Below, piece after piece: positions 46,794 through 47,783 of a stretch of DNA of 64,000 bases. The position numbers were made by a program, and so were the translations under genes. Position 1 is the first letter of the stretch, and the number at the start of each line of letters is the position of its first letter. The DNA comes from Streptomyces sp. NBC_00490 (GTDB taxonomy: Bacteria; Actinomycetota; Actinomycetes; Streptomycetales; Streptomycetaceae). The DNA is taken from the NCBI RefSeq assembly GCF_036013645.1, contig NZ_CP107869.1:5084001-5148000 (forward strand), in the 5' to 3' direction. The notes beneath the pieces were generated by a model that saw only the letters and a list, made by a program, of their open reading frames with translations, had not been told where the DNA came from and did not search any database.

Positions 46794-47098
46794 TGGCACT
46801 CCCGGTGTGTGGTGCTGAGCAAGGTTCCTGAAGGTCTCTGTCCAACAGTGTCTTCAGGCAGTGTCTTCAGACTACCCGCACAAAATTTCTACGCGCGTCG
46901 ACTTGTAGGAAACTACGTGACTGCCGTCACGATCCGGTATCAACGGCTGTGTTCACGAAAATTTCCAGGAAAGATCCCCGATCGACACCCGATACCTATT
47001 GCGCTCAGACACGCGGAAGGATTTAGTCGGGCTTCCCATTGCATTGTCGGGCACTGTACAAATGAATTGGCAAGTGCCGTATGAAGGGACCGATATTC
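46794..47098. other. Divergent promoter region of purS and lsrL
   Basis: A 305-bp gap between divergent genes. It is AT-richer than its surroundings, particularly near lsrL. It contains two copies of AGTGTCTTCAG (46847-46857 and 46860-46870) with a 13-base period, about 55 bp upstream of purS. No gene is seen. Confidence 0.55.
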
Positions 47099-47416
47099 GT
47101 GGCGCAGAAGGTCGTGGTCACTCTCTCTGACGACATCGACGGCTCGGAAGCGGCGGAAACGATCGCCTTCGGACTTGATGGCAAGTCGTACGAGATCGAC
47201 CTGAATCAAGCGAATGCCAAGAAACTGCGTAAGGCGCTCGAGCCCTACGTGGACGCTGGCCGCAAGCGGTCGAAGTCCGGCAAGGCCTACCGGCAGACGG
47301 AGGTCGCCCCCGACCCGGCGGCCGTCCGCGCCTGGGCGCAGGCGAACAAGATGGACGTCCCCGCGCGCGGCCGTATCCCCAAGAAGGTCTACGAGGCGTT
47401 CGCCGCGGCGCAGTGA
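47099..47416 (+). CDS. lsrL: Lsr2-family nucleoid protein (LsrL-like)
   Basis: The protein is 105 aa. It has the Lsr2 layout: an N-terminal beta/alpha dimerisation domain (VAQKVVVTLSDDIDGSEAAETIAFGLDG) and a C-terminal helix pair with the AT-hook-like RGR motif (AWAQANKMDVPARGRIP). Lsr2 proteins silence AT-rich, horizontally gained DNA. Streptomyces has two; by context (next to purS) this is the LsrL paralogue rather than the main Lsr2. GTG 47099 was selected on the conserved AQKV start and the GAAGGGA ten bases upstream; ATG 47081 would add six unusual residues. Confidence 0.92.
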   Translation: MAQKVVVTLSDDIDGSEAAETIAFGLDGKSYEIDLNQANAKKLRKALEPYVDAGRKRSKSGKAYRQTEVAPDPAAVRAWAQANKMDVPARGRIPKKVYEAFAAAQ

Positions 47417-47461: not shown

Positions 47462-47550
47462 AACCGACTTGCGTTGCACCCCACCTGGTCGGCTAGAGTC
47501 TGGAGCACGCCGAGGGGCGGGGACGGAAAAGCCCAGCCCACGGAGTACAT

Positions 47551-47622
47551 GCGGGTGTAGTTCAGTAGCAGAACATCCCCCTTCCAGGGGGAAGGCGCAG
47601 TGTGCAATTCCTGTCACCCGCT
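47551..47622 (+). tRNA. Atypical tRNA-Gly (TCC)
   Basis: A 72-base gene with perfect acceptor stem GCGGGTG/CACCCGC, anticodon loop CTTCCAG on a solid TCCCC/GGGGA stem, and D-stem GTTC/GAAC. The D-loop is AGTAGCA, where other tRNA-Gly have AATGGTA, so G18 is A. The T-arm reads GCAG-T-G TGCAATT C-CTGT: a five-pair stem with a bulged T and a T-loop TGCAATT, so T55 is G. Both partners of the G18-Psi55 elbow contact are therefore changed. A promoter-like TAGAGT lies upstream near 47494. It may be a special-purpose tRNA or a decaying one. Confidence 0.8.
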
Positions 47623-47701: not shown

Positions 47702-47774
47702 GCGAACGTAGCTCAGTTGGTAGAGCGCAACCTTGCCAAGGTTGAGGTCGCGAGTTCGAACCTCGTCGTTCGCT
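47702..47774 (+). tRNA. tRNA-Gly (GCC), copy 1
   Basis: A 73-base cloverleaf beginning GCGAACGTAGCTCAGTTGG, anticodon loop TTGCCAA, T-arm AGTTCGAACCT intact. It is identical over its whole length to the copy at 51468-51540. Confidence 0.95.
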
Positions 47775-47783
47775 CTTGATGTG

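Follow-up and report, generated by a model that had tools for sequence, protein, structure and literature searches.

A conserved atypical tRNA-Gly(UCC) gene behind lsr2 in Streptomyces: evidence for a specialised tRNA and a plausible role in the cell wall

The diversion of glycyl-tRNA from translation in bacteria that build glycine bridges is, according to a passage of the review PMC4052509, somewhat unclear in most instances, S. aureus being the example worked out there. A glycine tRNA gene in the window, by which the whole analysed stretch of 64,000 nucleotides is meant, raises this question for Streptomyces, as it departs from the usual tRNA form in the D-loop and in the T-arm. An earlier note on this DNA had proposed that the gene might encode a tRNA for cell-wall glycine rather than for translation. 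The features on which the analysis is based are as follows.

47081..47416, forward strand: lsr2-like gene, the constant upstream neighbour of the atypical tRNA gene
47469..47474, forward strand: promoter-like −35 element TTGCGT, followed by a spacer of 19 nt
47494..47499, forward strand: promoter-like −10 element TAGAGT, 51 nt ahead of the atypical tRNA gene
47551..47622, forward strand: atypical tRNA-Gly(UCC) gene, 72 nt without CCA
47564..47570, forward strand: D-loop AGTAGCA, with A18 at 47567 (normally G) and G19 retained at 47568
47583..47585, forward strand: anticodon TCC (positions 34-36), followed by A37
47597..47614, forward strand: T-arm, with GCAG (49-52), the bulged T at 47601, G53, the loop TGCAATT and the 3' strand CCTGT
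47702..47775, forward strand: ordinary tRNA-Gly(GCC) gene, the usual downstream neighbour of the atypical gene

The upstream gene is the one that we take to be lsr2. The Rfam tRNA model, whose gathering score is 29, matches 47551-47622 with 51.1 bits and aligns it with a single extra base inserted between positions 52 and 53 of the T-stem. By score the gene ranks 67th of the 76 tRNA matches in the whole genome, and it is not among the 9 tRNAs that ARAGORN reports in the window. All pairs of the acceptor, D and anticodon stems are formed. The T-loop consists of T54, G55 (47604), C56 (47605), A57 and A58, followed by the last two bases of TGCAATT, and the T-stem contains an A51-U63 pair. A18 and G55 thus stand in place of G18 and T55, while G19, T54, C56 and A58 are intact; the features of a canonical elongator tRNA, namely the G18-Psi55 elbow and an unbulged T-stem of 5 bp, are absent. 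The A18, the G55 and the bulged T described in the earlier note were found base for base. Its statement that the elbow contact has lost its two partners holds for the 18-55 pair and fails for the elbow as a whole, since G19-C56 is present and is kept in 57 of 57 variants, so that the elbow is altered rather than abolished, with a G19-C56 contact that can still form.

The variant set comprises 58 distinct sequences from 190 loci, with some genomes counted repeatedly, and 57 of the 58 have 73 nt, which corresponds to one extra 3' base. Across these 57 variants, 1193 of the 1197 stem cells are paired, and compensatory changes occur at 3-70, 6-67, 11-24 and 28-42 to 31-39. Positions 18 and 55 are A18/G55 in 53 variants and G18/T55 in 4, with no mixed form, in a set that was partly drawn from matches to a G55-selected pattern and that allowed mixed forms. 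The same behaviour is seen at 105 loci anchored on lsr2, one of which duplicates a named locus: 85 carry the gene, with 82 A18/G55, 3 G18/T55 and no mixed form. The pairs A51-U63 and C50-G64 are invariant (57/57), as are T33, the anticodon TCC and A37. The bulged T is present in 56 of 57, and the single exception (L212) pairs again when the bulge is placed one base earlier. The 49-65 pair is G-U in 51 variants and A49-U65 in the other 6, four of which are of the Streptacidiphilus type. The anticodon UCC and the glycine acceptor determinants are kept in all 57; for the synthetase we take these determinants to be G1-C72, C2-G71, C35, C36 and U73. The compensated stems, the joint change at 18 and 55, and the retention of A51-U63 and of the bulge indicate, at the level of sequence comparison, that the gene is a functional RNA and not a decaying one. 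The earlier argument that the two elbow changes do not look like random decay is therefore borne out over 57 variants.

BLASTN finds the atypical tRNA in 36 of 36 genomes of the same genus, and a sequence pattern confirms all 36. In a sample of 200 genomes of the family, 111 were matched by a pattern that demands G55. These are all 63 of genus g1, 34 of the 35 of g20, where the single genome without a match is 71% complete, and 14 of 15 in ten small genera. No match to this pattern was obtained in g27 (0/63), g16 (0/14), g18 (0/4), g15 (0/3) or g24 (0/3). At the level of the class, 394 genomes gave 40 matches, namely in all 40 genomes of g1, and none in the 354 genomes of other families, where the pattern would miss G18/T55 forms. 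The conservation that had been proposed as a check is thus found: the 36 relatives show the same deviations, and the gene is present in the 63 g1 genomes. From Lsr2 identity we infer that g1 is Streptomyces, g16 Streptacidiphilus, g20 Actinacidiphila and g27 Kitasatospora; g15 and g18 are perhaps Yinghuangia and Embleya, which is our guess.

The family and class patterns select for G55 and GCGG, whereas the sets anchored on lsr2 do not. Behind lsr2, g16 carries orthologs with A18 and G55 and a different acceptor stem (4/4 tested), and g15 (2/2) and g18 (2/2) carry the bulged form with G18 and T55, which explains part of the negatives of the G55 pattern. By contrast with these orthologs, only tRNA-Gly(GCC) is found at this position in g27 (3/3) and g24 (2/2). 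Among 80 named lsr2 loci, the atypical tRNA follows lsr2 in 65, of which 57 are Streptomyces, 4 Streptacidiphilus, 2 Actinacidiphila, 1 Streptantibioticus and 1 labelled Streptosporangium nondiastaticum. It was seen in 0 of the 15 loci of the Kitasatospora type (one on a short contig), 11 of which are so named and 4 of which are named Streptomyces sp. with a Kitasatospora-like Lsr2. Odd tRNAs could have escaped the motif scan of the named loci; Infernal applied to 20 loci of the Kitasatospora group, i.e. these 15 and 5 more, returned only tRNAs of 71.8 bits typed as GCC, and it recovered the atypical tRNA at 8 of 8 positive control loci. A diverged copy may have been relocated elsewhere in Kitasatospora genomes, judging from the sequence searches, because the diverged copies of G061 and G079, which are visible at the lsr2 loci, escaped the DNA search. 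For G087 only an Lsr2 paralog was retrieved, and its missing tRNA is uninformative.

Tandem triplets of the atypical tRNA stand behind lsr2 at L073, L074, L291, L324 and L344, and two copies occur in several other genomes. The four records with a Kitasatospora-like Lsr2 and no atypical tRNA (L277, L282, L283 and L285; Streptomyces sp. MJM8645, CB01881, NRRL B-24484 and NRRL S-350) look misnamed.

A pair resembling −35 and −10 elements lies upstream of the atypical tRNA at 85 of 95 loci, compared with a mean of 0.3 over 200 shuffles, where the 95 upstream regions are related loci and do not amount to 95 independent tests. In a first scan, with 85 positives among 92, the distance from the pair to the gene is 47-53 nt in the positives. 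At 85 anchored loci the leader after the −10 element, which in the window occupies 47500-47550 (CTGGAGCACGCCGAGGGG...), shows strong conservation. Expression of the atypical tRNA from the predicted promoter is likely, because the promoter-like pair and the conserved leader recur upstream of the gene. A 5' leader that is removed in processing would seem to call for less conservation than this.

All 28 genomes searched contain a canonical tRNA-Gly(TCC), which has G18G19, GTTC and G51-C63; among them are five where the atypical gene was not seen (G070, G073, G084, G086 and G095). In the genome under study the canonical copy lies at 3955771-3955841. The count of other tRNA-Gly(TCC) genes called for by the earlier note thus gave a canonical copy in this genome and in every other one searched, and the decoding of GGA and GGG is therefore independent of the atypical gene. 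The canonical Streptomyces tRNA-Gly(UCC) and tRNA-Gly(CCC) resemble the atypical gene in their acceptor and D stems, in the glycine determinants and in U73; what sets them apart from it is G18G19, GTTC, G51-C63 and a T-stem that has no bulge.

Support for the bulged T-arm comes from sequence comparison and from the covariance model, because energy folding returns no cloverleaf T-arm for the gene. When its sequence was folded singly, the pair probability of the bulged T-arm was about 0.05, and an alternative hairpin, GCGC-AGU-GUGC, was 1.4 kcal/mol more stable (−30.8 versus −29.4 for the bulged T-arm). The alternative hairpin is likewise favoured in a Streptacidiphilus example, the predicted fold of an Actinacidiphila example is another non-cloverleaf, and that of a g18 example is the bulged cloverleaf. 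Energy folding is a weak witness here, because the canonical tRNA-Gly(TCC) is likewise not folded into a cloverleaf. In terms of full pairing, the alternative hairpin is formed in 48 of 57 variants and the bulged T-stem in 56 of 57, so that the alternative, of similar predicted energy, was set aside for its poorer conservation.

A precedent is the non-proteinogenic tRNA-Gly(UCC) of S. aureus (Giannouli et al. 2009), which is cited here through passages of the reviews PMC4052509, PMC8007984 and PMC4810233. In the passage of PMC4052509, the wall tRNAs-Gly of S. aureus have A49-U65 and A51-U63 instead of the strong EF-Tu pairs G49-U65 and G51-C63, and their G18G19 is replaced by UU or CU. One tRNA-Gly(UCC) is characterised in part of PMC8007984 as low-scoring and well charged, with inefficient EF-Tu recognition and altered D and T loops. 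The Streptomyces gene has in common with the S. aureus tRNA, as far as these passages describe it, the UCC anticodon, an altered position 18, an altered T-loop and A51-U63, together with a low tRNA score, a canonical isoacceptor alongside and a FemX-type enzyme in the genome. Of the two weak EF-Tu pairs of the S. aureus wall tRNAs (PMC4052509, in part), A51-U63 is present in 57 of 57 variants and A49-U65 in 6 of 57. There are also differences from the S. aureus tRNA as these passages give it. The Streptomyces gene changes G18 only (A18 in 53/57) and keeps G19 in 57/57, whereas S. aureus changes both; its variants mostly have G49-U65 rather than A49-U65; and its T-stem has a bulged base, which the passages of PMC4052509, PMC8007984 and PMC4810233 do not mention for S. 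aureus. The same passages do not mention the GTGC motif that had been attributed to the staphylococcal tRNAs.

The gene cannot be filed in the staphylococcal group, because G19 is kept; if the proposed role holds, it would work like that group by another structural route. Because Streptomyces and S. aureus belong to different phyla, the two tRNAs probably originated independently. A further comparison is with the pseudo-tRNA tRNA-Other of Bacillus cereus, likewise a tRNA-like RNA believed to work outside translation, whose deletion changed cell-wall morphology according to the part of PMC3399842 that describes it. In the same source its aminoacylation in vitro is poor and its position is next to a pathogenicity island, in contrast to the Streptomyces gene, which has the glycine determinants and stands beside a core gene. 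Among the literature matches listed (titles and starts of abstracts, with most subscription journals outside the scope), no description of such a Streptomyces tRNA was found.

Four FemAB genes were found in the genome, the match to each of them being split in two, and the nearest fem gene is about 165 kb from the atypical tRNA. All 31 family genomes tested have FemAB genes, the 5 from g27 among them. For the copy at 5296893, each of the 31 other family genomes contains a counterpart with 62-97% identity, where orthology is taken from the pairwise identity of the best compared copy rather than from a tree; in the five g27 genomes a FemAB copy is 68-79% identical to this core copy. The idea that the tRNA was lost since FemX was lost is unsupported, as FemAB genes persist in the Kitasatospora group. 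No link with extra FemAB paralogs was seen among 23 tRNA-bearing genomes, 11 of which show one FemAB gene. In a passage of PMC4790382, FemX of S. coelicolor is the enzyme that attaches one glycine, without which the precursors would be lethal. Glycine is present in the Kitasatospora wall (PMC8236941, in part), and both diaminopimelic isomers occur in the hydrolysates of Kitasatospora as well as of Streptacidiphilus (PMC6113628, in part). A simple link between the isomers and the tRNA is weakened, because Streptacidiphilus has the atypical gene. A correlation with the wall chemistry of Kitasatospora would be a single event that permits no statistical test.

These comparisons give good confidence that the atypical gene encodes a functional tRNA-Gly, probably one that evades translation. 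The best explanation, to which we lean with modest confidence, is that it is a wall-dedicated glycine donor for FemX. The glycyl-tRNA synthetase determinants would permit charging. EF-Tu grips a tRNA at the T-stem. The bulge and A51-U63 are located at this grip and would weaken EF-Tu capture, and the altered elbow would further disfavour use on the ribosome. The free glycyl-tRNA could then be used by FemX for the single-glycine branch on the peptidoglycan precursors. As for its history, for which no species tree was used, the first step may have been the bulge and A51-U63, as in the G18/T55 forms of g15 and g18; positions 18 and 55 would then have changed jointly; and the Kitasatospora group (g27 and g24) would later have lost the gene or had it replaced by tRNA-Gly(GCC).

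Several observations stand against this explanation. The Kitasatospora group has no such gene behind lsr2, yet has FemAB genes and wall glycine, which counts against a strict dedication to the wall. Kitasatospora has a lower demand, makes do with another tRNA or carries a diverged copy elsewhere; with a lower demand or another tRNA, the atypical tRNA would not be strictly required by FemX. In addition, 49-65 is mostly G-U, which the passage of PMC4052509 describes as a strong EF-Tu pair. The intact G19, T54, C56 and A58, the folding of single sequences, which disfavours the bulged T-arm, the lack of matches to the G55 pattern in the 354 genomes of other families and the distance of the nearest fem gene count against it as well. 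The earlier proposal of a cell-wall tRNA stands in that the tRNA is specialised, conserved, redundant with a canonical isoacceptor and accompanied by FemAB genes; a strict dedication is less likely, as g27 has FemAB genes and the tRNA was not found there.

The same strong 49-65 pair, together with the persistence of FemAB genes in a group without the tRNA, would fit a translating tRNA-Gly(UCC) with an idiosyncratic elbow, i.e. an auxiliary or regulated decoder of GGA and GGG, as would the invariant T33, TCC and A37 and the retained G19, T54, C56 and A58. We consider this unlikely, given the canonical UCC isoacceptor in all 28 genomes tested and the T-stem bulge with A51-U63 in 57/57, where the canonical copies are unbulged with G51-C63.

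Also improbable, to a similar degree, is a donor or regulator outside the wall, serving either another Gly-tRNA-dependent transferase or as a bistable RNA whose T-arm switches to GCGC-AGU-GUGC. Natural-product enzymes that use Gly-tRNA do exist (DhpK, and Orf11 of BD-12, named in a passage of PMC12945691), but the presence of the gene in every g1 genome examined points to primary metabolism, and the single FemAB gene seen in 11 of the 23 tRNA-bearing genomes also speaks against such a donor. The stability of the alternative hairpin in this sequence and in the Streptacidiphilus example would suit a switch; against this, it pairs fully in fewer variants than the bulged T-stem, a bulged cloverleaf is predicted for the g18 example, and the energies are weak witnesses. 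A regulator acting on glycine T-boxes is disfavoured, as none was seen in the genome. The tRNA as ligand of a glycine T-box was set aside, the genome showing two T-box matches, both below threshold, one of them before a SerRS-like gene. That match, L378 (4552469-4552704), reaches 53 bits, below its gathering score.

A pseudogene or strain-specific mutant, which the low score and the miss by ARAGORN might suggest, is refuted by conservation and can be given almost no weight, with the same deviations in 36 of 36 relatives, compensated stems and, in some genomes, two or three copies in tandem.

Outside the window, the genome contains a second odd class of tRNA-Gly(TCC), at 9471784-9471853 and 9846961-9847030 (39.8 bits each), with G55 (T-loop TGCAAGG), A51-U63 and T37; its loci are L019, L021, L248 and L249. 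Of 394 family genomes, 147 or more have matches to this class (two candidates scored per genome), often two copies each; the copies listed are 96-100% identical, and their genomic positions vary. BLAST clusters were uninformative as to shared neighbours. L013 (8587818-8593933) and L020 contain extra low-scoring tRNAs (Glu-CTC, Asp-GTC, Trp-CCA and Arg-TCT; 37.7-58.8 bits), which stand away from the main tRNA loci and are possibly on mobile elements. A wider scheme, doubtful but conceivable, is a private glycine channel in which two classes of tRNA-Gly(UCC) are withheld from translation. In this scheme the class linked to lsr2, independently staphylococcus-like, would feed peptidoglycan cross-bridging and would have been dropped as the Kitasatospora group changed its wall, and the second, unrelated and position-variable class with the same G55 may serve specialised metabolism.

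Taken together, the case that the glycine tRNA gene at 47551-47622 is functional and specialised is much strengthened, and a cell-wall role is plausible. The gene shows that a common tRNA finder can miss genes of this kind, and it would offer a natural A18/G55 elbow variant for the study of tRNA structure. With a conserved candidate in Streptomyces, which is harmless and genetically tractable, more than one origin of a dedicated tRNA for wall glycine would be suggested, and the question of how glycine is diverted would become directly testable by deletion.
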